Virus record (IMG/VR): IMGVR_UViG_3300037189_002681
Coordinates: 1 to 25,527 of that record
Source of the DNA: a virus
Strand: one strand, 5' to 3'
Length of the DNA stretch: 25,527 nt
Shown here: positions 3,790 to 24,376 of the stretch, piece by piece
Position numbering within the stretch: the stretch's first letter is position 1
How the letters are laid out: every line of letters begins with the position of its first letter
The notes under the pieces: model-generated
Told to the model about the DNA's origin: nothing
Database searches by the model: none
What the model saw: only the letters and a program-made list of their open reading frames with translations
Made by a program: the position numbers and the translations under genes

Positions 3790-3980
3790 TGATAGTAAAA
3801 GTAGCAAATTCAATCGGCCGAGCTCATGGTAAATTTTTTACGTGGCTAGGACAAAAAGCAGAAACTAACCCATGGTGGGCAGTTGCCTTAACTGCATGGG
3901 CATTATATGAAATCGGAGAACACATTGCCGGGCCTATACTCGCAGTACTTTGGGCTACCGGACATGTTACAATACAGTAA
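3789..3980 (+). CDS. Small single-pass membrane protein
   Basis: A 63-residue protein that starts at the TAATG junction with the previous gene and ends at another TAATG junction with iscU. Residues ~29-58 (WWAVALTAWALYEIGEHIAGPILAVLWATG) form one or two short hydrophobic segments, interrupted by a GEHIAG turn. The N-terminus is basic. No family is recognised. Its place in a late transcript with a secreted protein suggests an envelope role, for example in lysis or protecting the membrane, but nothing proves it. Confidence 0.7.
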   Translation: MIVKVANSIGRAHGKFFTWLGQKAETNPWWAVALTAWALYEIGEHIAGPILAVLWATGHVTIQ

Positions 3981-4363
3981 TGGCTTATAGTGACAAAGTT
4001 ATCGATCACTACGAAAACCCTAGAAACGTTGGCAGCTTTGACAAGTCTGACCCTAGTATTGGTACTGGTATGGTGGGCGCACCAGCTTGTGGAGATGTAA
4101 TGAAATTACAAATCAAAGTCAATGAACAAGGTATTATTGAAGATGCTAAATTCAAAACTTACGGGTGCGGGTCGGCAATTGCGTCTAGCTCTCTTGTTAC
4201 AGAATGGCTTAAAGGTAAGACTCTTGACGAAGCAGGAAGCATCAAGAATTCTGCGATTGCAGAAGAACTCGCCCTGCCTCCGGTCAAAATACATTGTAGC
4301 ATACTGGCAGAAGATGCGATTAAGGCGGCAGTAAATGATTACCGTAACCGACAAAGCTCGTAA
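3980..4363 (+). CDS. iscU: Fe-S cluster assembly scaffold IscU
   Basis: A 127-residue protein that matches the full length of bacterial IscU (128 in E. coli). The start is at the TAATG junction; an upstream in-frame ATG at 3950 would add a non-homologous leader. Cluster ligands are all present: C37 and D39 in ACGD, C63 in YGCGSA, H105 and C106 in KIHCS. The LPPVK motif (99-103), which the Hsp70 HscA recognises to promote cluster transfer, is intact. IscU receives sulfur from the desulfurase IscS, for which no gene is seen here, so the host enzyme is probably used. It overlaps iscA by 29 bases. Phage-encoded IscU is unusual, and the phage also encodes an Hsp70 (12869-14776). Confidence 0.97.
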   Translation: MAYSDKVIDHYENPRNVGSFDKSDPSIGTGMVGAPACGDVMKLQIKVNEQGIIEDAKFKTYGCGSAIASSSLVTEWLKGKTLDEAGSIKNSAIAEELALPPVKIHCSILAEDAIKAAVNDYRNRQSS

Positions 4364-4661
4364 AAAAGTAAAAGAGTTTTTAGAAAAGAGAGGCAAAGGT
4401 GTTGGCATCCGACTTGGTGTCAAGACTAGCGGTTGCAGTGGACTCAAGTATACACTAGAGTATGTAGATGAGTACACAGCAGAACCCAATGTAATCAATT
4501 ATGCACAACCCGAGTTTGTAGTGTTAGTTGATCAAAAGCACGAAGTATACATGTTTGGCATGGAGATCGATTGGGTTAAAAACGGACTCAATGAAGGATT
4601 TGATTTTAAGAATCCAAACGAAACAGCACGTTGCGGCTGTGGCGAAAGCTTCAAAGTATAA
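4335..4661 (+). CDS. iscA: Fe-S cluster A-type carrier IscA
   Basis: A 108-residue protein that aligns along its full length with E. coli IscA (107). The three conserved cysteines are C34 (TSGCSGL), C100 and C102 (CGCGESF). It carries Fe-S clusters from the scaffold to apoproteins. The start lies within the end of iscU (29-base overlap, +1 relative frame), and the N-terminal MITVTDKARKKV matches the normal IscA start, so the overlap looks real. Candidate recipients are not evident in the window; the ferredoxin that serves the bilin reductase would be one, but that is speculative. A-type carriers alone occur in several T4-like marine phages; pairing with IscU is rarer. Confidence 0.96.
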   Translation: MITVTDKARKKVKEFLEKRGKGVGIRLGVKTSGCSGLKYTLEYVDEYTAEPNVINYAQPEFVVLVDQKHEVYMFGMEIDWVKNGLNEGFDFKNPNETARCGCGESFKV

Positions 4662-8405: not shown

Positions 8406-8781
8406 ACTATTCAATTTGAATATGGGATATCTGTTAATAAAGCCTTCGCTATATGTGAAGCAACAGTTTCAAACTATTTTGAGCCACAATATAGAAGAAA
8501 TTAATGTGTTCATCTACGATGACAATGAGCACGATGTAGATTGGCTACTTAGTGTAGCTAACCAATGCGATATTACCATTATCGATATTGACAACTGCGA
8601 TCCTACTACTAAATTATTTGTAACTTATCTTCTTGCTCAACCTAATACACACTATATAACTAATGATGAAATCACTCCTTATGGATTGATTAGTAAGAAC
8701 AGAATTTATAACTTAGACTGGATCGTGGCGCAGGTCACGGACGATGATGGAGAAGAAGACGAAAATGACACAGAGGGATAA
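8365..8781 (+). CDS. Conserved T4-like phage hypothetical protein
   Basis: A 138-residue acidic protein. The frame is open from 8305, but ATG 8365 is chosen because [17 protein letters not shown] is where, from memory, homologs in marine T4-like phages begin. Alternating strand/helix blocks ([47 protein letters not shown]) suggest a Rossmann-like alpha/beta fold of the toprim or response-regulator size, but I see no catalytic signature. The end is very acidic ([13 protein letters not shown]) and overlaps the bS21 gene by 17 bases. T4 counterparts near regulators of late transcription are possible but not claimed. Confidence 0.82.
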
Positions 8782-9004
8782 ACGTTTCGACGGTAACCGT
8801 GTAACTCTCAGGGAAGGTGAGAACATGAACCAAGCCTTGAGACGTTTCAAGAGAAAAATTGAAGACAGTGGCATCATGGATGAACTACGACGCAAAGAGT
8901 TCTACGAAAAGCCCACTACTGAACGCAAGCGCAAGAAGGCCGCGGCGATCAATCGATACAAAAAGAAGCTGGCGAAAGAGCAACTTCCACCAAAATTGTA
9001 TTGA
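8765..9004 (+). CDS. rpsU: Ribosomal protein bS21 (phage-encoded)
   Basis: A 79-residue basic protein. The core [26 protein letters not shown]...[28 protein letters not shown] matches bS21 across its full length, including the near-invariant [15 protein letters not shown]. bS21 sits on the 30S platform near the anti-Shine-Dalgarno end of 16S rRNA and helps translation initiation, so a phage copy could bias ribosomes toward phage mRNA. Starts at 8744 and 8747 are also in frame; 8765 is chosen because GGAG at 8749-8752 precedes it. It ends in TGA, overlapped by the -35 of the tRNA promoter. Phage bS21 homologs are known in large phages. Confidence 0.95.
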
Positions 9005-9029
9005 CATACTAATCAACATCTACTATAAT
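9001..9029 (+). promoter_or_regulatory. Perfect sigma70-type promoter for the tRNA, TTGACA-17-TATAAT
   Basis: -35 TTGACA at 9001-9006, 17-base spacer and -10 TATAAT at 9024-9029. The expected start near 9036 lies just before the mature tRNA 5' end at 9039, so the tRNA would be made as an almost leaderless precursor. Confidence 0.88.
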
Positions 9030-9038
9030 AGAGACAAT

Positions 9039-9113
9039 GCGCTTAAGAACCTGCGGAAGGTAAGGAGACTCTAAATCTCTGTTTGGTGGGTTCGACTCCC
9101 ACTAAGCGCACCA
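9039..9113 (+). tRNA. tRNA with anticodon CUA (amber suppressor type)
   Basis: A clear cloverleaf with encoded CCA. The acceptor stem GCGCTTA (9039-9045) pairs fully with TAAGCGC (9103-9109), then A73 and CCA (9111-9113). The T arm is GTGGG/CCCAC with loop TTCGACT. The anticodon stem GGAGA (9064-9068)/TCTCT (9076-9080) encloses CTCTAAA, with U33 and anticodon CTA at 9071-9073, which reads UAG. The variable loop is 5 bases, so it is not a class II tRNA. The D arm is weak (three pairs, ACC/GGT, loop TGCGGAA with GG), and positions 8 and 14 are A and U rather than the usual U and A. Amino-acid identity cannot be told; G1-C72 with A73 does not fit E. coli tRNA-Gln. Confidence 0.9.
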
Positions 9114-9146: not shown

Positions 9147-10226
9147 ATGATGACATACTTTCTGAAGCAAGGAAACACATACAGAGTATCAAAGAAGGAA
9201 GCACTCGACATCCGCGAGCAACTTCCAGCTGGGAACTATGTGATTAAGAAGAATGAAATGACTGGTGAGTTGTTTCTCGAAGGTGTTGACGCCTTCGACA
9301 TCAAGGGCAAAGTCTATGGAGATACGCACAAACGTGCAGAACGTATCCTCTATGCTTTCGAAGACCGTCCAAGCTCTACCGGTGTAATGCTTACTGGTGA
9401 AAAAGGATCTGGTAAGACTCTTTTGGCTAAGATGCTATCTTTCAAAGGATACGACAAGGGTTATCCGACTATCGTAATCAATCAGCCATGGTGCGGAGAA
9501 GCGTTCAATGCTTTTATCCAGAGCATCGAGCAACCTGCAATCGTAGTGTTCGACGAGTTCGAAAAGATCTACGATAGCGACGATCAAGAAGCTATGCTAA
9601 CCTTGCTAGATGGAGTATATCCTAGCAAGAAGTTGTTCGTTCTTACTTGTAATGACAAATACCGTGTTAATCAGCACATGAAGAATCGTCCAGGACGAAT
9701 CTTCTACTCATTGGAGTACAACGGTCTTGAATCGGAATTTATCCGCGAGTACTGCGAAGATAATCTTAAGGCCAAGGAACATATCGATCGTATCATCGGT
9801 ATCGCTGGAACGTTTGATCAGTTTAACTTTGATATGCTTAAGGCATTGGTCGAAGAGATGAACCGATTTAACGAGTCTCCTCAGGAAGCTATGACTATGC
9901 TGAATGCCAAGCCTGAGTATGGTAATGATGGGCGTTACAAGGTCAAGCTAATGGTCAATGGTGAAGAAGTCGGCGACGCTGATTTCGAATCAAAGGAGTG
10001 GCACGGTAATCCGCTTAACAAGCGTGTAAATGTCAGCTACAGGTCTTACAGCCAAGAAGAAGATGCTGACGGCGATTGGGATTGGGAACAAATGACTTTT
10101 GAGCCTGCCCATCTGAAGAAGATCGATGATAATGGCAACAAGTATGTTTTTGTTGGTTCTAACGGAAACACTCTTGTGCTTACTAAAGTGAAAGAACAAG
10201 GCTACCGTTACTGGGATGCCTTTTAA
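9147..10226 (+). CDS. AAA-family ATPase
   Basis: A 359-residue protein. An N-terminal ~60 residues precede a single AAA module: Walker A GEKGSGKT (84-91), Walker B IVVFDEFE (132-139), sensor-1 FVLTCND (164-170) and arginine-finger candidates R181 and R184 (NRPGR). The C-terminal ~95 residues are beta-rich (KVKLMVNGEEVGDADF...) and form a separate domain that I do not recognise. ATG 9150 is an alternative start; AAGG at 9140-9143 serves either. Phage AAA proteins of this type may act as remodelling or clamp-loading factors or in virion assembly; the substrate is unknown. The gene follows the tRNA with no obvious promoter of its own. Confidence 0.88.
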   Translation: MMTYFLKQGNTYRVSKKEALDIREQLPAGNYVIKKNEMTGELFLEGVDAFDIKGKVYGDTHKRAERILYAFEDRPSSTGVMLTGEKGSGKTLLAKMLSFKGYDKGYPTIVINQPWCGEAFNAFIQSIEQPAIVVFDEFEKIYDSDDQEAMLTLLDGVYPSKKLFVLTCNDKYRVNQHMKNRPGRIFYSLEYNGLESEFIREYCEDNLKAKEHIDRIIGIAGTFDQFNFDMLKALVEEMNRFNESPQEAMTMLNAKPEYGNDGRYKVKLMVNGEEVGDADFESKEWHGNPLNKRVNVSYRSYSQEEDADGDWDWEQMTFEPAHLKKIDDNGNKYVFVGSNGNTLVLTKVKEQGYRYWDAF

Positions 10227-12868: not shown

Positions 12869-14776
12869 ATGAGCAAAATCATCGGTATCGACTTAGGTAC
12901 AACAAATAGCTGTGTAGCTATCCTAGAAAACGGAAAAGCTAAGGTAATCGAAAACAGCGAAGGTGCTAGAACAACACCGTCAATCATTGCATACACTACA
13001 GACGAGATCCTAGTAGGTGCAACAGCAAAGCGACAAGCAGTCACAAACCCAAAGAATACAATTTATGCGGCAAAGCGTTTAATCGGACGTAAGTTCGAAG
13101 AGCAGGCTGTACAGAAAGATATTGACTTGATGCCTTACAGTATCATCAAGGCAGAAAACGGTGACGCTTGGATCGAAGCAAATGGCGAGAAATTGGCTCC
13201 GCCGCAAGTTTCAGCCGAAGTACTTCGTAAGATGAAAAAGACAGCAGAGGACTATTTGGGTACAACAGTTACTCAAGCAGTTATCACCGTGCCTGCTTAC
13301 TTTAACGACAGTCAACGTCAAGCAACTAAGGATGCAGGACGTATTGCTGGACTCGAAGTACTTCGCATTATCAACGAACCAACTGCGGCTGCTCTAGCCT
13401 ATGGCGTAGATAAAGAAGATAAGAAGGATCGTAAGGTAGCTGTATACGATCTAGGTGGTGGTACATTCGACGTGTCCATTATCGAGATTGCCAATATCGA
13501 TGGCGACAAGCAGATTGAAGTGTTGTCAACTAATGGTGATACATTCCTAGGCGGTGAAGACTTTGACCAAGTTATCATGGACTATCTAGTAGATGAGTTC
13601 AAGAAAGAGTCTGGCATCGACCTTAAGAAGGATCAGTTGGCACTACAACGTCTAAAGGATTCAGCTGAAAAGGCCAAGATTGAATTGTCTAGCGCCGCAC
13701 AGACTGAAGTCAACTTGCCATACATCACAGCAGACGCAAGCGGTCCTAAGCATTTGATCGTCAAGATTACACGTAGCAAGTTTGAACAGATGGTAGATGT
13801 ATTGATCCAGCGTTCAATTGAACCATGTAAGGTTGCTATGAAAGATGCAGGTGTTACTGCCGCTGACATCGACGAAGTTATCCTTGTTGGTGGACAGACA
13901 CGCATGCCTAAGGTACAAGAAGCAGTTGAGAAACTGTTTGGCAAGGCTCCACGTAAGGACGTCAACCCAGACGAAGCAGTTGCCGCAGGCGCCGCAATCC
14001 AAGGTGCTGTTCTAGCAGGCGATAAGACAGACGTTCTGTTGCTAGACGTTACTCCATTGTCATTAGGTATCGAAACAATGGGCGGTATCTTTACCAAGCT
14101 GATCCAGAAGAACACAACTATTCCAACTAAACACACTCAGACATTCAGCACAGCTGAAGACAATCAGCCTGCTGTCACTATTAAGGTAGGACAGGGCGAG
14201 CGTGAACTAATGCAACACAACAAGTTGTTGGGCGAATTTAACCTAGAAGGTATTGCTCCAGCAATGCGTGGTGTTCCCCAGATCGAGGTCACACTAGATC
14301 TTGATGCTAATGGTATCTTGAATGTAAGTGCCAAGGATAAGAATACTGGCAAAGAAAACAAGATTACTATTAAATCTGATTCAGGTCTATCTGAAGCAGA
14401 AATACAACGCATGGTTAAGGAAGCAGAGGAAAATGCCGAAGCTGATAAGAAGCTGAAGGAATTGATCGAAGCTCGTAACAATGCGGAAGGTGCAACACAT
14501 ACTGTGAAGAAAGATTTTGAACAGTACAAAGACAAGCTAACAGAAGACGACAAGACAGCATTTGAAACCGCCCTGGCCGACGTTGACAAATCAGTACTTG
14601 GCGACGATCCAGAAGCTATCCAAAAGTCTGTCCAAACGTTGTTTGAAAAAGCACAACCAATCTTTACTGCTAAACAGACAGCAGAACAAGCTCCTCCAGA
14701 AGCTCCTGCGGCTGAACCAGAGCCTGCTGTAGTAGATGCAGAGTTCACAGAGGTTGACACTAAGGATAAGAAGTAA
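12869..14776 (+). CDS. dnaK: Full-length Hsp70 chaperone DnaK
   Basis: A 635-residue protein that matches bacterial DnaK (638 in E. coli) end to end. The ATPase domain (~1-380) has [10 protein letters not shown], the [17 protein letters not shown] segment, [21 protein letters not shown] and GGQTRMP; the linker [15 protein letters not shown] and substrate-binding domain (~390-500) follow, then the helical lid and a C-terminal EVDTKDKK-type tail. It appears functional, with no gap. It is of proteobacterial type and was probably taken from a host, though codon use is not visibly different. No DnaJ or GrpE is seen nearby, so host co-chaperones would serve. Full-length Hsp70 in a phage is uncommon; possible clients are virion proteins, curli subunits and the phage IscU (LPPVK). 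Confidence 0.97.
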
Positions 14777-14782
14777 TATAAT
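14754..14782 (+). promoter_or_regulatory. Perfect sigma70-type promoter for hsp20, TTGACA-17-TATAAT
   Basis: -35 TTGACA at 14754-14759 lies inside the dnaK 3' end, with a 17-base spacer and -10 TATAAT at 14777-14782, directly after the dnaK stop. The expected start (~14789) is the first base of the GTAGGGC hairpin arm, so the mRNA would begin in a hairpin. Confidence 0.85.
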
Positions 14783-14788
14783 AAAATC

Positions 14789-14837
14789 GTAGGGCGCCGA
14801 TGGTCGGGCCCTACAAAGTTCTTGCTTAATAAAGGAG
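14789..14837 (+). promoter_or_regulatory. hsp20 leader element: 5'-terminal hairpin plus TTCTTGCTTAAT-SD block
   Basis: GTAGGGC (14789-14795) pairs with GCCCTAC (14808-14814); inside, CCGA pairs with TCGG around loop TGG, with one bulged G. It is followed by TTCTTGCTTAAT (14819-14830) and SD AAAGGAG (14831-14837), as in the dnaK leader. UUCUU (14819-14823) can pair with AAGGA (14832-14836). Confidence 0.55.
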
Positions 14838-14844
14838 AAACAAA

Positions 14845-15267
14845 ATGAACCAACTAAGAACTATTGATGCTAATGCTCTAGCACAAATCAACAGAGCACT
14901 TGTAGGATTTGATCGTTACTTTAACAATCAATTCGCTAATGTAAACGGCAACTATCCTCCACACAACATTGTCAAATACGCTGACAACAAGTATGGAATC
15001 GAAGTAGCAGTAGCAGGTTTTACCAAAGATGAAATCACTGTAGAAGTTGATCAAGATCAGCTAATGATTACAGGTAAACGAGCTAATGCCGCAGAAGGTG
15101 TGGAATATTTGCATCGTGGATTAGCCGCTCGTGATTTTGAGCAGACATTTACCCTAGCTGAATATATGGAAGTCAAGGGTGCTGAAGTTAAGGATGGTAT
15201 GCTTAAGATTGAAATTGAGCGTATCGTTCCAGAAGCATTAAAACCACGTTCGATCACTATTAAATGA
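14845..15267 (+). CDS. Small heat-shock protein Hsp20 (IbpA type)
   Basis: A 140-residue protein. The N-terminal ~37 residues have the IbpA-like FDRYFNNQF; the alpha-crystallin domain spans ~40-130, with the strand motifs YGIEVAVAGFTKDEI, LMITGKR and GMLKIEIERIVPE; the C-terminal I-x-I anchor is ITI. It holds unfolding proteins for refolding by DnaK, which lies directly upstream, so the phage encodes a coupled holdase/foldase pair. Hsp20 is common in T4-like marine phages, where it is thought to help virion assembly. It has its own sigma70-type promoter and the same leader element as dnaK. Confidence 0.95.
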   Translation: MNQLRTIDANALAQINRALVGFDRYFNNQFANVNGNYPPHNIVKYADNKYGIEVAVAGFTKDEITVEVDQDQLMITGKRANAAEGVEYLHRGLAARDFEQTFTLAEYMEVKGAEVKDGMLKIEIERIVPEALKPRSITIK

Positions 15268-15275
15268 AGTAAATA
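15268..15275 (+). promoter_or_regulatory. Late-promoter-like AGTAAATA before clpS
   Basis: AGTAAATA matches TATAAATA at six of eight bases. It lies directly after the hsp20 stop. The expected start near 15281 is in the left arm of the hairpin at 15278-15305. Confidence 0.45.
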
Positions 15276-15277
15276 AT

Positions 15278-15305
15278 AGTGTAGGGAAGGCAACTTCCCT
15301 ACACT
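15278..15305 (+). promoter_or_regulatory. 12-bp GNRA hairpin upstream of clpS
   Basis: AGTGTAGGGAAG (15278-15289) pairs perfectly with CTTCCCTACACT (15294-15305) around the stable tetraloop GCAA. It follows the hsp20 stop by 10 bases and has no U-tract, so it may be a 5' stabilising or processing hairpin of the clpS transcript rather than a terminator. It shares GTAGGG with the hsp20 leader stem. Confidence 0.7.
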
Positions 15306-15326
15306 TAACCCTAAGAGAGTAAGAAG

Positions 15327-15629
15327 ATGCCAGGAACCGATATTCAACTAGACGAAAAGATCAAAGTAACCGTATCAGAGCCAAAACGTTGGAAGGTTAT
15401 CTTCCTAAACGATGACGCTACTCCTATGGACTTTGTTGTTGGTATATTAATCGAAATATTCCATCACTCAGACACAACTGCTCGTGACATCATGGTCACA
15501 GTACACGAAAGTGGTAGTGCAATAGCTGGCGTTTACAGTTTTGAAATCGCTGAAGCTAAGGCAGTCGAAGCAACCACAGTAGCTCGAGCAAATGGATTTC
15601 CATTGCAGATCAAATTGGAGGAAGAATGA
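15327..15629 (+). CDS. clpS: ClpS-type N-end rule adaptor
   Basis: A 100-residue protein of usual ClpS length (106 in E. coli). The core WKVIFLNDDATPMDFVVGILIEIFHH matches the ClpS Y.V.L.NDD.TPM..V...L, and the second half AIAGVYSFEIAEAKAVEATTVARANGFPL matches the G...EIAE.K...V...A...G.PL region. ClpS binds N-degrons and directs them to ClpAP; a phage copy could redirect host proteolysis. The segment from clpS to the bilin reductase is coupled by 4- to 8-base overlaps. Phage ClpS is known but uncommon. Confidence 0.93.
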   Translation: MPGTDIQLDEKIKVTVSEPKRWKVIFLNDDATPMDFVVGILIEIFHHSDTTARDIMVTVHESGSAIAGVYSFEIAEAKAVEATTVARANGFPLQIKLEEE

Positions 15630-16180
15630 GCTTACGCGAGTTAACACATGAGGCACATAAAAATGCCGAGAGACAAGAGTTTGTGAAGATCCTGTTTTCG
15701 GGTAAGATCAATCCAAAGCTATATGCAACATTTTTAAAAAACCAACATCCTACTTATGAGATTCTAGAAGTATGTGCTATGCCACATCAGCTTTTACATG
15801 GGCTACCTGATATCCGCCGAGCACCTTCGATCCTAGCAGATTTTGAAGAACTATGGAATGATGAAGAAGACGGCATTCCTAAGATCATGCCTACTACTGA
15901 AAAGTATATTAAACACATACTGAGCATCAAGGATGATCCTAAGAAACTAATGGCACACATCTATGTTCGACACATGGGCGACCTTGCAGGCGGTCAGATG
16001 ATTAGTAAGAAGGTTCCAGGATCCGGACGTATGTATCAATTTGCAGAACCTGATGCACTCAAAGCTGCCATACGGGAACGTATCAGCGATGACATGGCCG
16101 ACGAAGCTAACATCTGTTTTTCGTTTGCTACAGATCTATTTAGAGACATGTTAGAATTAGTAGAATATGTAGATGAGTAA
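15626..16180 (+). CDS. Heme oxygenase (HO-1 family)
   Basis: A 184-residue all-helical protein. The proximal haem ligand is H11 in the EAHKNAE segment (as in HO-1 EVHTQAE), and the distal-helix motif is HMGDLAGGQM (116-125). The length is typical of short bacterial or phage heme oxygenases. It opens haem to biliverdin IX-alpha, iron and CO, with electrons from ferredoxin or a cytochrome reductase. The bilin reductase two genes downstream is the natural next step. It overlaps clpS by 4 bases and the next gene by 8 bases (ATGAGTAA). The released iron might also be useful to the Fe-S genes here, but that is speculative. Confidence 0.95.
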   Translation: MSLRELTHEAHKNAERQEFVKILFSGKINPKLYATFLKNQHPTYEILEVCAMPHQLLHGLPDIRRAPSILADFEELWNDEEDGIPKIMPTTEKYIKHILSIKDDPKKLMAHIYVRHMGDLAGGQMISKKVPGSGRMYQFAEPDALKAAIRERISDDMADEANICFSFATDLFRDMLELVEYVDE

Positions 16181-19134: not shown

Positions 19135-19584
19135 ATGGTGAAAAAGTTAATATTCTGCTTGTTAATCTGCCCGGCAATAGCAATGGCAGCACCTCTCCAA
19201 GACTATCAATTTAAGAGCCCAAGCTTCAATGGCAGTGGATATAGCAGTCATGTGCTTACTATAGAAAATCAAGAATTTACACGTAGGGCGCAGTTACAAA
19301 AAGATATTCAAGCGGCATTAGACAAAGCAAAAGCAGATGCATCTAATACCAACATAGCCAAGTTCATGAACAACTTGGAGTCACGTATATACGCACAGAT
19401 TAGCCAAAATTTAGCTACTGCTATGTTTGCTAATGGTGGCACAAATTCAGGCACACTAAATTTTGAAGGTAATACTATATTCTGGACTAAGGATAGTTCT
19501 AGCGTTACCTTACAAGTTACAGACAGTGTCGGCAATCAGACTACTGTAGTTGTCCCATTAGGACAATTCCAGTTTGGAAACTAA
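19135..19584 (+). CDS. csgF: CsgF-like curli assembly factor
   Basis: A 149-residue protein with a Sec signal peptide (MVKKLIFCLLICPAIAMA, cleavage near AMA-APL). The mature N-terminus LQDYQFKSPSFNGSG matches CsgF, whose start (F.F.NP.FGG) inserts into the CsgG pore. The C-terminal region (TNSGTLNFEGNTIFWTKDSSSVTLQVTD) keeps the beta-rich end. CsgF sits at the outer membrane face and helps the nucleator attach. SD GGGAG (19124-19128). It is 1 base before CsgG, the same pair as in bacterial curli operons. No CsgE, CsgC or CsgD is seen. Confidence 0.92.
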   Translation: MVKKLIFCLLICPAIAMAAPLQDYQFKSPSFNGSGYSSHVLTIENQEFTRRAQLQKDIQAALDKAKADASNTNIAKFMNNLESRIYAQISQNLATAMFANGGTNSGTLNFEGNTIFWTKDSSSVTLQVTDSVGNQTTVVVPLGQFQFGN

Positions 19585-19585
19585 T

Positions 19586-20863
19586 ATGAAGAATGTATTA
19601 CTACCGACATTAATTGCTTTAAGCCTTGCTGGGTGTGCGTCAATCCAGAGTACCGGATTGACTGAGACTAAACCAGAAGTAACTAAAGTTATGATGCAGA
19701 AGGAGTTTGATACTATACCTCCTCCATCCAGTAACAAGCCAGTTAGTGTAGCAGTATACAGTTTTATGGACAAGACAGGACAGCGCAGGCCGCAAGCTAA
19801 TGTGGCAAGTTTAAGTACTGCGGTTACTCAAGGTGCAGAAGCATTCCTTATCAAAGCATTGCAGGATGTAGGTAAAGGTACATGGTTCGATGTTGTAGAG
19901 CGTGTTGGTATCGACAACCTGACCAAGGAGCGTACAATCATACGCCAGATGCGCGAAGCATATGAAGGTGCTAATGCAAAACCTTTGATGCCTATGCAGT
20001 TTGCTGGATTGATTATGGAAGGTGGAATAGTAGGCTACGATACTAGCACGACTAGCGGCGGCGCTGGCGCAAGAATATTTGGAATAGGATCACAGACACA
20101 ATGGAGCACTGATACAGTTACGGTGAGTCTACGTGCAGTCAGTGTAAACACAGGTAAAGTCTTGGCAAGTGTTACTGTACAGAAAACTATAATGAGTACA
20201 GCAGACAGTGCCACAGCATTGAAATTCTTTGATGCTGGTACGAAGAGTTTTGAAGCAGAAGCAGGCTTAACTATCAATGAGCCAGGTACTTATGCTGTTA
20301 AATCAGCAGTAGAAATGGCAGTGGTAGAATTAATCAAAGAAGGCGCAAAGAAAGGCATATGGGATTTTAAGTACCCTATGGTTGAAGCTAAGAGATACTT
20401 GTTGGGCGGCGGAGGTTTTGAACCCGAGCCTAAGAAAGTAGAAGCTCCTGTAGAAGTTAAACAAGAGGAGAAGAAAGATGTCGTGGTTCAATCACAAACC
20501 CCCGAAACACCCGCCCCAACCCCCGCACCTGACACCGCACCACAACAGTCCAGCGACAGTGAAGATACTAAAAGAGACGAAGGAAAGGGTGAGGCCAGCA
20601 AGGCAGAAGAAAAAATAGTAAAACCAGCGGCAAAAGCAGAAGTAAAACCAATAGCACCAAGGCCGCTGTTTGGACAACGTAAATTAAAAGAAGATGCATA
20701 CTTGTTTACAGAAGCTGACACGGCAAGTACTAAGAAATGGCTCTTCAAGAAAGGCACAGAAGTTAAAGTTGTACAGCCAGGGAGTGAAGGTTGGCTGAGA
20801 GTCGTAGACGGCGAAAACAAAGGCGGATGGATTCGCACAGAGGTATTAGAGCAGTTAAAATAA
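19586..20863 (+). CDS. csgG: CsgG curli secretion channel with C-terminal SH3 domain
   Basis: A 425-residue protein starting at ATG 19586; a TTG at 19574 is rejected because the lipoprotein signal peptide begins at 19586. The lipobox LAGC has Cys17, so the protein is an outer membrane lipoprotein. Residues ~17-270 match CsgG (VAVYSFMDKTGQRRP, SLSTAVTQGAEAFLIKAL, FDVVERVGIDNLTKERTIIRQMREAY). E. coli CsgG stops at 277 residues; here an E/K/P-rich linker (~275-355) leads to a bacterial SH3-like domain (~360-425), ending WLRVVDGENKGGWIRTEVLEQL. The pore exports curlin subunits; the SH3 part would lie in the periplasm, where such domains often bind peptidoglycan (inference). Confidence 0.92.
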   Translation: MKNVLLPTLIALSLAGCASIQSTGLTETKPEVTKVMMQKEFDTIPPPSSNKPVSVAVYSFMDKTGQRRPQANVASLSTAVTQGAEAFLIKALQDVGKGTWFDVVERVGIDNLTKERTIIRQMREAYEGANAKPLMPMQFAGLIMEGGIVGYDTSTTSGGAGARIFGIGSQTQWSTDTVTVSLRAVSVNTGKVLASVTVQKTIMSTADSATALKFFDAGTKSFEAEAGLTINEPGTYAVKSAVEMAVVELIKEGAKKGIWDFKYPMVEAKRYLLGGGGFEPEPKKVEAPVEVKQEEKKDVVVQSQTPETPAPTPAPDTAPQQSSDSEDTKRDEGKGEASKAEEKIVKPAAKAEVKPIAPRPLFGQRKLKEDAYLFTEADTASTKKWLFKKGTEVKVVQPGSEGWLRVVDGENKGGWIRTEVLEQLK

Positions 20864-20884
20864 AGTAGTACAATAACAATTAAC

Positions 20885-20926
20885 GGGGCCCAGCCCCAAG
20901 GAGCGTATTGCCTTAAGAAAGCAATA
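20885..20926 (+). promoter_or_regulatory. Two stem-loops flanking the SD of the first curlin gene
   Basis: GGGGC (20885-20889) pairs with GCCCC (20893-20897). The SD AAGGAG (20898-20903) follows. Then TATTGC (20906-20911) pairs with GCAATA (20921-20926). The SD is 33 bases from the ATG at 20937, but the second stem-loop would bring it to an effective ~12. T4 genes 25 and 38 use hairpins of this type. Confidence 0.5.
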
Positions 20927-20936
20927 TTGGAATCAT

Positions 20937-21839
20937 ATGGAACAGAGCATCAAAGGCGATGGTAAGTTGTCGAGAAAATTACTTACAATACTGATTTCAA
21001 CTGCAATGTTGACATCGGGAGGCTTTGCTATGGCCGCGGACAATAGCATATTCATCGATCAAGCAGGTGATAATAACCAAATAGTAGTAAATCAGAAAGG
21101 TAGCGGCAACGCTATTGGCGGCACTAACGGGATACCTAGTGCTAGCAACAGAGCAGGAATTAATGGTACTAGCAACGGTGTAGTGATCGATCAAGTGGGT
21201 ACAAGCAACAAGCTGGCACTCAGTTTTAATAACGATGACGGTGGCCCTAGCTCAGGAAGGACTATGACATTTCCAGCTAATCCTTATACTGGTGTTGTAG
21301 GTAGCACTTCGGCACCATTAAGTTTCTTGTATCAGATAGAAGGTTCTAACAACGCAGGCACGATTAACGTAGGAAATCCTAATTCAAAATTAACTAATAC
21401 ACAAGTGCAAGTTAATGGCAATGGTAGCAACAACGCTATCGGTATCAATGTACAAACTGGTAACGATAATACTGTGATTGCTACACTAGGCAGTGGGTTT
21501 GGATCTGGTACTAGTGGCGCTGTAGACAACAGTAATATCACTTCAGTAGTTAATGGTACTGGCAACACTACCGGTATCAATCTAACAGCAAATTCTAACA
21601 CAGTAAGTACACAGCAAACAGGCGATTATAACAGTATTAGTATTGCCGCATCAGGAGTTAGTAATACGTTCAATGTAGCACAGGACAGCACTGCTGTAAC
21701 TGGACATACATTCGCGGCTAACGTAACTGGGTCTGGCAATGATATTGGTGTTGTACAGGCAGGAATAGCAAATAGCACTATTAACGTGAATGTTGCAGGT
21801 AGCAACAACACATTAAGATTAAACAGTAATAAGCCTTAA
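20937..21839 (+). CDS. Curlin-repeat protein 1
   Basis: A 300-residue exported protein. The signal peptide is about residues 12-34 (LLTILISTAMLTSGGFAMA). The mature protein has curlin-like repeats of about 20-25 residues of the form xxxxQxGxxNxxxxxQxG: IFIDQAGDNNQIVVNQKGSGNA, GVVIDQVGTSNKLAL, and more degenerate ones with GSNNA, GNDNT, GTGNTT and TGDYNSI. The Asn/Gln/Gly/Ser ladder with alternating Ile/Val is the amyloid core of CsgA/CsgB. No cysteines. It follows CsgG and is the probable secreted fibre subunit or nucleator; which of the two cannot be told. Confidence 0.9.
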   Translation: MEQSIKGDGKLSRKLLTILISTAMLTSGGFAMAADNSIFIDQAGDNNQIVVNQKGSGNAIGGTNGIPSASNRAGINGTSNGVVIDQVGTSNKLALSFNNDDGGPSSGRTMTFPANPYTGVVGSTSAPLSFLYQIEGSNNAGTINVGNPNSKLTNTQVQVNGNGSNNAIGINVQTGNDNTVIATLGSGFGSGTSGAVDNSNITSVVNGTGNTTGINLTANSNTVSTQQTGDYNSISIAASGVSNTFNVAQDSTAVTGHTFAANVTGSGNDIGVVQAGIANSTINVNVAGSNNTLRLNSNKP

Positions 21840-21840
21840 T

Positions 21841-22629
21841 ATGTTAAAACGCATCATAGCATCACTACTATGTATTGGTGCTGTTGAAGCTTATGCGGCA
21901 GATAACAGCACCTACATAGACCAATCGGGCGATAACGCAACAGTGTTAATCGTACAGGATGGTGCCGGTAATCGAGTTCGGGGATTACCAGGCAGTGGAA
22001 CTAGTGATGAAACCCCGGCTATAATGTATGGAGATAGTAACCAGATAACTATCAGCCAAGTGGGTTCAGGCAACACGATGAAATTTGGTGCTCAGACAAA
22101 ATTGCCATCGGAATTAGACATTGCTGGATACAGTGGTAATATCTTTTACTACAACGTAAAAGGTAATAGTAATAATGCCGTCATAGATAGCAATGGCAAT
22201 GGCAAAGATATCAGCAAAGGCAACAGCATCATACTAACACAGACCGGTAATGGCAACAACGCTGAAGTTAAGATGACGGGTACTGCTAATAATCTAACAG
22301 CTACTACCAGCGGCGGTAACTCTAACGGAGTTATTTCGTTAACCGCAGGAGATAGAAATTTACAGCAAATCACAGTATCTAGCGGTAGTAATAATACAGT
22401 TAACATATCCCAAACAGGAAACAATAACTCAGTAATAGGAACAGCAGTAGGTTCTGGAAACAATGTAAACATGTCTCAAGACGGTTTTGGACACACTGCT
22501 ACATTTGATATCATAGGAAATTCTAATACCGTGAAGACTTCACAGCTGGGTATTGGAGATGTTACACCTTTGAACATAGTTATGAAGGGCAGTAACAACG
22601 TCATAGTTGTAGCCAACGGAGGCAAATAA
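21841..22629 (+). CDS. Curlin-repeat protein 2
   Basis: A 262-residue exported protein with signal peptide MLKRIIASLLCIGAVEAYA (cleavage ~20). The first repeat STYIDQSGDNATVLIVQDGAGN and later ones (NSIILTQTGNGNNAEVKMTG, NNTVNISQTGNNNSVIGTAVG, NNVNMSQDGFGHTATFDIIG, NSNTVKTSQLGIG) give a regular Q-G-N ladder, like curlin 1 but more regular, at residues ~130-255. It starts 2 bases after the curlin 1 stop, with no good SD, so it depends on coupling. It overlaps the FecR-domain gene by 1 base (TAATG). Confidence 0.9.
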   Translation: MLKRIIASLLCIGAVEAYAADNSTYIDQSGDNATVLIVQDGAGNRVRGLPGSGTSDETPAIMYGDSNQITISQVGSGNTMKFGAQTKLPSELDIAGYSGNIFYYNVKGNSNNAVIDSNGNGKDISKGNSIILTQTGNGNNAEVKMTGTANNLTATTSGGNSNGVISLTAGDRNLQQITVSSGSNNTVNISQTGNNNSVIGTAVGSGNNVNMSQDGFGHTATFDIIGNSNTVKTSQLGIGDVTPLNIVMKGSNNVIVVANGGK

Positions 22630-23768
22630 TGAGAAGTCTAGCAGTTTGCCTTATAATACTATGCTCACCTGCCTATGCAGAAATTGGATCTGTGACAGAA
22701 CAGCTAAATTCCGTTCCCGTGATACAGAGACAAAATCAAACACTACAAGCTCCTACCGGAACTAAAGTTGAGATGATGGATGCTGTTCGCACTACACAGG
22801 GTAAGATTGGTATTACGTTCGAAGATAAGAGCCGTGTGCAGGTTAACGAAAACAGTAAACTTGTCATCGATGATTTTGTGTACAGTCCTAAAAACAAAGC
22901 AGGTCAAGCGGCAATGAAAGTAGCATATGGTACTGTTAGATTCGCTAGCGGAGATATAGCACATAACAATAAAGACAAAGTGGCTATCAATACACCTAGT
23001 GCTAGTATCAGTGTGCGCGGCACAGATTTTACAGCAACAGTAGATGAAACTGGAGCCAGCACTGTAGTTCTGTTACCCACTTGTCCAGGCTGGCGCGGCA
23101 GCAGAACTGCTACGGATATCGAACCCGATTGTACAGTAGGTGCTATTACAGTATCCAATGATGCAGGGTCTGTAGTATTGAATAAACCATTCCAAGCTAC
23201 TAGGGTTGAAAATAGAAGCGTACAGCCTAGTCCTCCTGTGATATTAAAACTTAGCGAATTTGCCATGAACAACATGTTAATTGTTGCTCCTCCTAGAGAA
23301 TTAGAAGCCAAACAAGATGACAATCGTAAGGAGATGAAAGGCATATTAGATGTTAACTTCTTGAAAGAAACAGGACTGGCTAATGCTCTGGATGCAGAAC
23401 AAAAAGACATGTTCGTTGACAAGTTGAGCCGTAATTTCCTAGATCAAGATTTTCTAGCCAATGTTCTAGATATCATTAATGCGCAGATGGCCGCGCAGGT
23501 TAATTTGCTGAACAGCACTAAATCAGGGCTGTTACCCGATTACAATGCTGTTACAGGAGTAGTAGCTGAAGTTGACGATACATCTGTTACACTGAGTCGT
23601 AGTGATGGTAGCAATAGACAAAGCATTACTACTCCTAAAAATCAAAACTCAACTCTAGTTCAGACGCAAGGAAGTATCGAAGTTAAAAACCGTGTAAATA
23701 ATGGTGGCGGTACAACTATCACAGTAGTACAAGACAATTCGGCAATAGTGACGGCTCCAAGAAAATGA
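22629..23768 (+). CDS. FecR-domain secreted protein in the curli operon
   Basis: A 379-residue protein with signal peptide (MRSLAVCLIILCSPAYA). Residues ~20-140 match the FecR beta-domain: VGSVTEQLNSV...GTKVEMMDAVRTTQGKIGITFEDKSRVQVNENSKLVIDDFVY, then AAMKVAYGTVRFASGDI and VAINTPSASISVRGTDF. Two cysteines (~150, ~168) and a helical region (~225-300), then a Thr/Ser/Asn-rich end (~305-379) follow. In the host, FecR domains sense or bind at the cell surface. Lying between curlins 2 and 3, it could anchor the fibre to the cell or chaperone subunits. It overlaps curlin 3 by 4 bases (ATGA). No cognate ECF sigma is seen. Confidence 0.85.
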   Translation: MRSLAVCLIILCSPAYAEIGSVTEQLNSVPVIQRQNQTLQAPTGTKVEMMDAVRTTQGKIGITFEDKSRVQVNENSKLVIDDFVYSPKNKAGQAAMKVAYGTVRFASGDIAHNNKDKVAINTPSASISVRGTDFTATVDETGASTVVLLPTCPGWRGSRTATDIEPDCTVGAITVSNDAGSVVLNKPFQATRVENRSVQPSPPVILKLSEFAMNNMLIVAPPRELEAKQDDNRKEMKGILDVNFLKETGLANALDAEQKDMFVDKLSRNFLDQDFLANVLDIINAQMAAQVNLLNSTKSGLLPDYNAVTGVVAEVDDTSVTLSRSDGSNRQSITTPKNQNSTLVQTQGSIEVKNRVNNGGGTTITVVQDNSAIVTAPRK

Positions 23769-24376
23769 AACTAATAGCAATATTCCTAATGATCATATCA
23801 CTAGCTGGGCTTAGATGCACTGATGTAAAAGCCCAATCTACTAGCGATAATACCATTTACATAGATCAAGTAGGAAGCAACAATTCTATCTCCATAGACC
23901 AAACAGGTAACGGACATTCTGCTACAGTTAGCCTGGGCAATAATAATGGTAGCAGTAATGTAGATTACACTACTATAGCTATAATACAACAAGGTGCTCC
24001 TAAGACTGCTAGTGTAGAAATTAAAGCAGGCAGTAACAATTCTGTAAGCATACAACAAGATGGTTCAGGTAATCATACTGCGGCTATTCAAAATCTAAAT
24101 GGTAGCGGTAATCAATTCAACATAACACAAAGTGGTAATGGTAAACATGAATTTACAGTAACTAATACTGCGGGCAGTACCAACGATGCTAATGTATTAA
24201 ACGCACAACAGACTGGCGGAGTTGGTGCTGAAAAAACATTTAATGTTTGGTTGAATGGTGCAACTGGAGCTAATATTTCTGTACAACAAACTAATCCCAC
24301 AACTGCCAGCCAAGGCAGTATGAGCATACAGTGTATGCCAGGCACATGTGGTAATTGGTCTTATATCCGTAATTAA
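23765..24376 (+). CDS. Curlin-repeat protein 3
   Basis: A 203-residue exported protein (signal peptide ~1-24, MKLIAIFLMIISLAGLRC...VKAQ; the LAGLRC does not form a clear lipobox). Curlin repeats: NTIYIDQVGSNNSISIDQTGNGHSA, SNVDYTTIAIIQQGAPKTASVEI, NSVSIQQDGSGNHTAAIQNL, and NQFNITQSGNGKHEFTVTN. The last ~50 residues are less regular and contain two cysteines (CMPGTC) near the C-terminus, which is unlike typical curlins; they may cap the fibre or form a surface loop. It ends the translationally coupled curlin2-FecR-curlin3 run. Confidence 0.9.
   Translation: MKLIAIFLMIISLAGLRCTDVKAQSTSDNTIYIDQVGSNNSISIDQTGNGHSATVSLGNNNGSSNVDYTTIAIIQQGAPKTASVEIKAGSNNSVSIQQDGSGNHTAAIQNLNGSGNQFNITQSGNGKHEFTVTNTAGSTNDANVLNAQQTGGVGAEKTFNVWLNGATGANISVQQTNPTTASQGSMSIQCMPGTCGNWSYIRN

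Follow-up and report, generated by a model that had tools for sequence, protein, structure and literature searches.

Amber-decoding tRNAs with a CUA anticodon have been annotated in several cultured jumbo phages, namely XacN1, RAS14, CBB, GAP32 and Phosso. In jumbo phages that use the standard code, suppressor tRNAs have previously been reported genome by genome, and a target was never found: none was identified for those of XacN1 (PMC5852040), for the similar suppressor of Summit (PMC9022506), or for that of RsoM2USA, a phage-borne tRNA that we compare through its paper alone (PMC8504454). Phages that use genetic code 15 (crAss-like, Lak and phAss-1) also encode a CUA tRNA, and many of their genes contain in-frame UAG codons. 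The same anticodon is found in tRNA-Pyl of methanogens, the anticodon loop of which is CUCUAAA. Outside phages, amber suppressors made from host tRNAs create non-stop complexes that are handled by tmRNA/SsrA (Ueda 2002, as cited in PMC3985003).

The DNA analysed here is a virus record of 25.5 kb (hereafter, the window). ARAGORN found a single tRNA in it, at 9039–9113 on the plus strand with anticodon CTA. The gene and its immediate surroundings are:

8744–9004, plus strand: bS21 ribosomal protein gene (Pfam PF01165, 1e-19), just upstream of the tRNA
9001–9029, plus strand: sigma-70 promoter of the tRNA, TTGACA-17-TATAAT, 12 of 12 positions matching
9039–9113, plus strand: amber-decoding tRNA gene with anticodon CUA, A73 and an encoded CCA (ARAGORN, RF00005, covariation and the R1 model described below)
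9147–10226, plus strand: AAA+ ATPase gene (Pfam PF00004), starting 33 nt downstream of the tRNA

A whole-window run of the Rfam model RF00005 with fast filters missed the tRNA, and a search of the short stretch alone recovered it at 39.3 bits, where the gathering score is 29. The acceptor stem has seven pairs (GCGCUUA/UAAGCGC), the seven-base anticodon loop is CUCUAAA with U33 present, and a standard T arm with the loop UUCGACU is followed by A73 and the encoded CCA. The central part of the molecule is less regular. Position 8 is an A and position 14 a U, positions 10 and 25 form an A.A mismatch, and the classical D stem consists of three pairs (11-24, 12-23 and 13-22), to which an energy model adds U14-A21; the usual, although not obligatory, U8-A14 pair and four-pair D stem are both absent. 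ARAGORN labels the gene tRNA-Pyl because of its CUA anticodon alone. Besides this label, the window tRNA shares the CUCUAAA loop with tRNA-Pyl, but differs from it in having two bases between the acceptor and D stems and a five-base variable loop. We considered a pyrrolysine system and rejected it, as we found no PylS in 34 contigs; these all come from relatives, the window genome being itself a fragment.

The initial annotation had described an intact cloverleaf with a CUA anticodon, U33 and an encoded CCA, preceded by a perfect promoter. The cloverleaf is borne out by the RF00005 score and by stems that covary across 47 relatives, and the ARAGORN call agrees with the sequence on the anticodon. 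Judged from sequence, window 9039–9113 is confirmed as a genuine tRNA gene that would decode UAG. The promoter also stood up. Its -35 box (9001–9006) overlaps the TGA stop codon of the bS21 gene, and a 17-bp spacer separates it from the -10 box (9024–9029), with 9 nt between the latter and the tRNA. In 23 of 46 relatives, a sigma-70 site with 10 or more of 12 matching positions lies just 5' of the tRNA, compared to 1.8% of shuffled sequences, so this placement recurs in half of the family. We saw no terminator by eye between the tRNA and the AAA+ ATPase gene. The ATPase gene is present in 16 of the 50 tRNA-carrying contigs; in relatives it is frequently, though not invariably, close to the tRNA.

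An exact search pattern for the tRNA matched 68 stretches when run on 2.9 million virus contigs; on 84,980 prokaryote species genomes it matched nothing. The initial annotation was right about the phage origin of the window tRNA. Together with earlier loci, the matches gave 47 distinct family sequences. Since the anticodon loop, the CCA end and most of the T arm were prescribed by this pattern, their invariance is partly by construction; positions 8, 31 and 39 were left untouched. In the 47-member alignment, 91.6% of stem cells are paired, and the observed covariation was reached by none of 500 shuffles. Pair 31-39, in the anticodon stem, is mismatched in 40 of the 47 members, compared to three of a control set of 280 other tRNAs from the same phages. 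The mismatches are C.A (27), A.C (8), C.C (4) and U.C (1), and with C.A and A.C both represented, the mismatch has persisted through base changes at either position. U8, which is present in 260 of the 280 control tRNAs, is often replaced in the family. The A8/U14 arrangement and the three-pair D stem remarked on in the initial annotation are thus real features; A8/U14 is not a peculiarity of this copy, since its relatives have commonly lost U8 too.

We define this family, R1, by an acceptor stem starting with GCG, a YUCUAAA loop, A73-CCA, and a high score with the R1 model together with a CUA anticodon; the model scores range from 72 to 94 bits in 50 contigs. The window copy fits R1 by construction, because it sits in the seed alignment. 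It lacks the broken 31-39 pair, a common but not obligatory feature of R1, and is one of two family members with A31-U39; since the window copy is among the few to retain this pair, the mark was invisible when the window was read by itself. The amber tRNA mostly lies outside the phages' tRNA arrays; in six genomes, the nearest other tRNA is 5 to 106 kb away. We also looked for a parent among the elongator tRNAs of these phages, and no clear one emerged. As far as sequence can tell, the tRNA is securely placed in a structurally odd, widespread family of huge phages without UAG recoding.

Cultured phages share parts of this signature. The CUA tRNAs of XacN1 and RAS14 have the C31.A39 mismatch, as do many R1 members. 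In contrast to R1, the acceptor stems of the XacN1, CBB, GAP32 and Phosso tRNAs are other than GCGC, and unlike most R1 members, those of GAP32, CBB and Phosso keep U31-A39. XacN1 has two CUA tRNAs with the same body and different acceptor stems and discriminators. A CUA tRNA of Salmonella phage Arash (L236:4994-5068) is annotated as tRNA-Phe; ARAGORN reads its anticodon as CUA, and it too has the C31.A39 mismatch. The publications consulted do not describe the family, the broken 31-39 pair or the tmRNA link presented below.

Megablast of the window found no close relative among annotated phages. Relatives of the window ATPase number 76, in virus contigs that reach 424 kb, which indicates huge phages. 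Among the genome contigs listed, the window DnaK is nearest to betaproteobacterial DnaK (about 70–73%), and the tmRNAs of the window's relatives match the betaproteobacterial tmRNA family in Rfam (permuted, beta-type). From the DnaK affinity and the tmRNA type, we infer that the hosts are likely betaproteobacterial.

We then considered how these phages use UAG. All 40 complete open reading frames of the window are readable in the standard code, and none requires UAG as a sense codon: 33 stop at UAA, seven at UGA and none at UAG. This zero is unexceptional for the clade (for the 45 conserved genes of the sister contig, zero has a probability of about 0.13). In larger relatives, UAG ends a few percent of genes, coding density is barely higher when UAG is read as sense, and true proteins are terminated by UAG, IscA of two relatives being one case. 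Overall, UAG stops account for 92 of 2069 conserved genes in these phages (4.4%). The fraction is 59 of 1357 (4.3%) in phages with the tRNA and 33 of 712 (4.6%) in those without (p = 0.82). UAG avoidance as a response to the tRNA can therefore be rejected; the scarcity of UAG is a clade trait rather than an adaptation to the tRNA.

We also searched 392 UAG extensions against the proteins of nine genomes and no protein ran on through an in-frame UAG. The extension matches were neighbouring genes that share a frame by chance, or stretches of tRNA arrays, and programmed readthrough of particular phage genes was rejected on this basis. At G003:104576-106045, a small conserved gene ends in UAG and another, separate conserved gene lies in frame behind it, so that readthrough would fuse the two; we judge this arrangement to be a coincidence. 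No nearby backup stops were found after UAG-ending genes in tRNA carriers. Since conserved genes stop at UAG and no protein was found to span one, these phages do not recode UAG.

Permuted tmRNA genes were found recurrently near the amber tRNA, and at locus L205 the two adjoin. A tmRNA scored above the cut-off in 34 of the 50 tRNA-carrying contigs. In the 19 contigs of at least 70 kb that carry both genes, the two lie within 7 kb of each other in 12, compared to 1.7 expected, a comparison that treats genome fragments as they are and ignores kinship; 100,000 simulations placed at most nine contigs within this distance. The two genes are a median of 5.5 kb apart in the same contigs, where 48 kb would be expected. 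The genes are on the same strand in 17 of the 19, in an order that varies by lineage, and two contigs are clear exceptions, with the genes 41 and 178 kb apart on opposite strands. tmRNA genes also occur in relatives without the amber tRNA, and none was found in the window or in the 36-kb sister contig, both of which are genome fragments. In GAP32, CBB and Phosso, the 10 kb on either side of the CUA tRNA contain no tmRNA, so the link is not universal. XacN1 does contain a permuted, unannotated tmRNA gene (L231:7066-7486; AP018399 37201-37621), approximately 1 kb from its two CUA tRNAs.

The tag reading frames of the tmRNAs stop at UAA or UGA in 22 of 22 cases, never at UAG. We noted that the tags predicted for the tmRNA genes of L022, L168, L184, L199, L205 and L216 are unusually long, at 23–30 residues. 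SmpB was found in none of 32 contigs, so host SmpB would be needed. A phage glutamyl/glutaminyl synthetase, considered as a means of charging the tRNA, was likewise found in none of 34 contigs.

Among contigs of at least 100 kb, proteins with an RF-1 domain are encoded in nine of 18 with the tRNA and in none of 11 without it (p = 0.005, kinship ignored). The examined proteins of 187–201 amino acids are RF1-type, with PxT (PPT) and GGQ motifs and without domain 1; three further RF-1 domain proteins have 139–142 amino acids. Three genes for RF1-type factors without domain 1, each with PPT and GGQ motifs and in the 187–201 amino acid range, are:

L059:3855-4418, plus strand
L089:11207-11776, minus strand
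L121:15002-15607, plus strand

The proximity of the amber tRNA to tmRNA points to an unexplained tampering with translation stops. The reading we tentatively prefer is that the tRNA is an early, probably weak UAG suppressor that would act with ribosome rescue, mainly on host genes ending in UAG. It would be transcribed early by host RNA polymerase, be charged by a host synthetase, and compete, probably weakly, with RF1 at UAG. Host genes would bear the main effect, as UAG stops are commoner in host-like bacteria than in the phages: 154 of 868 genes, or 21 of 184 at a GC content below 52%, a range of 11–18% against the 4.4% given above, in a sample drawn from the dnaK neighbourhood, where some of the genes are orthologs of one another. 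Ribosomes reading through the stop and off the end of the mRNA would be rescued by the phage's tmRNA (together with the RF1-like factor). Host protein output would thereby be disturbed, and most phage genes, which stop at UAA or UGA, would be spared.

The suppressors covered by the Ueda citation likewise paired readthrough with tmRNA, although in that account the suppressors were not phage genes, whereas here the tRNA and the tmRNA are both phage-encoded (PMC3985003). This known route, the excess of UAG stops in host-like genes, and the phage tmRNA and RF1-like factor together favour an early effect on host termination; the equal scarcity of UAG in relatives without the tRNA weakens it. A stronger version, which we think rather unlikely, would have the early amber tRNA with its weakened anticodon stem, the phage's own tmRNA and sometimes the RF1-type factor without domain 1 form a termination-control kit, with UAG separating host from phage messages and ribosomes diverted at host UAG stops and then recycled.

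An unlikely, yet still credible, alternative is that the phage itself gains from a weak suppressor, which would rescue amber mutations across its very large genome or yield low levels of extended forms of a few of its proteins. Weak suppression is consistent with carriers still using UAG to end about 4% of their conserved genes, and the target-less suppressors of XacN1 and Summit are similar, but conserved sequence after UAG stops is absent, and the linkage to tmRNA and the RF1-like factor would be left unexplained. It is quite improbable that the molecule does not decode at all and instead acts as a tRNA-shaped decoy, or as a regulator, by binding the ribosome or the host's tRNA enzymes. The loss of U8 and the broken 31-39 pair do set the family apart from other tRNAs of the same phages; however, every stem covaries, and a normal acceptor, anticodon loop, A73 and CCA are retained, the loop and CCA partly through the way the search was built.

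RelE-type toxins cut mRNA in the ribosomal A site, with a preference for UAG. The tRNA could accordingly be a counter-defence that fills the A site at UAG and shields the message, with tmRNA recovering complexes that have been cut. We regard this as very doubtful: the linkage with tmRNA would fit, as would the rarity of UAG in all of these phages with or without the tRNA, but where UAG is already rare there is little to shield. Lastly, the proposal in the initial annotation that the tRNA marks a TAG-recoding phage is almost certainly wrong, since the CUA anticodon and a 36-nt stretch resembling the phAss-1 suppressor are what the window shares with code-15 phages, whereas its open reading frames are standard and without the in-frame UAG codons of those phages, its relatives stop conserved genes at UAG, and the gain in coding density is small.

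Viewed as a family, these suppressor tRNAs gain a structural signature, a partner in the genome and a hypothesis that can be tested. Were the mechanism true, it would represent a host shut-off exerted when translation terminates, and the broken 31-39 pair would illustrate the tuning of a natural nonsense suppressor.

Elsewhere, the window carries host-type genes for IscU, IscA, DnaK, Hsp20, ClpS and heme oxygenase (3950–4661 and 12869–16180). Host ClpS diverts ClpAP from SsrA-tagged proteins, and the ClpS gene (15327–15629) may be relevant in a phage clade that has its own tmRNA. Further downstream (19574–24376), genes for a CsgG-like export protein, a curlin-repeat protein and a FecR-domain protein possibly constitute a phage-borne curli-like set.
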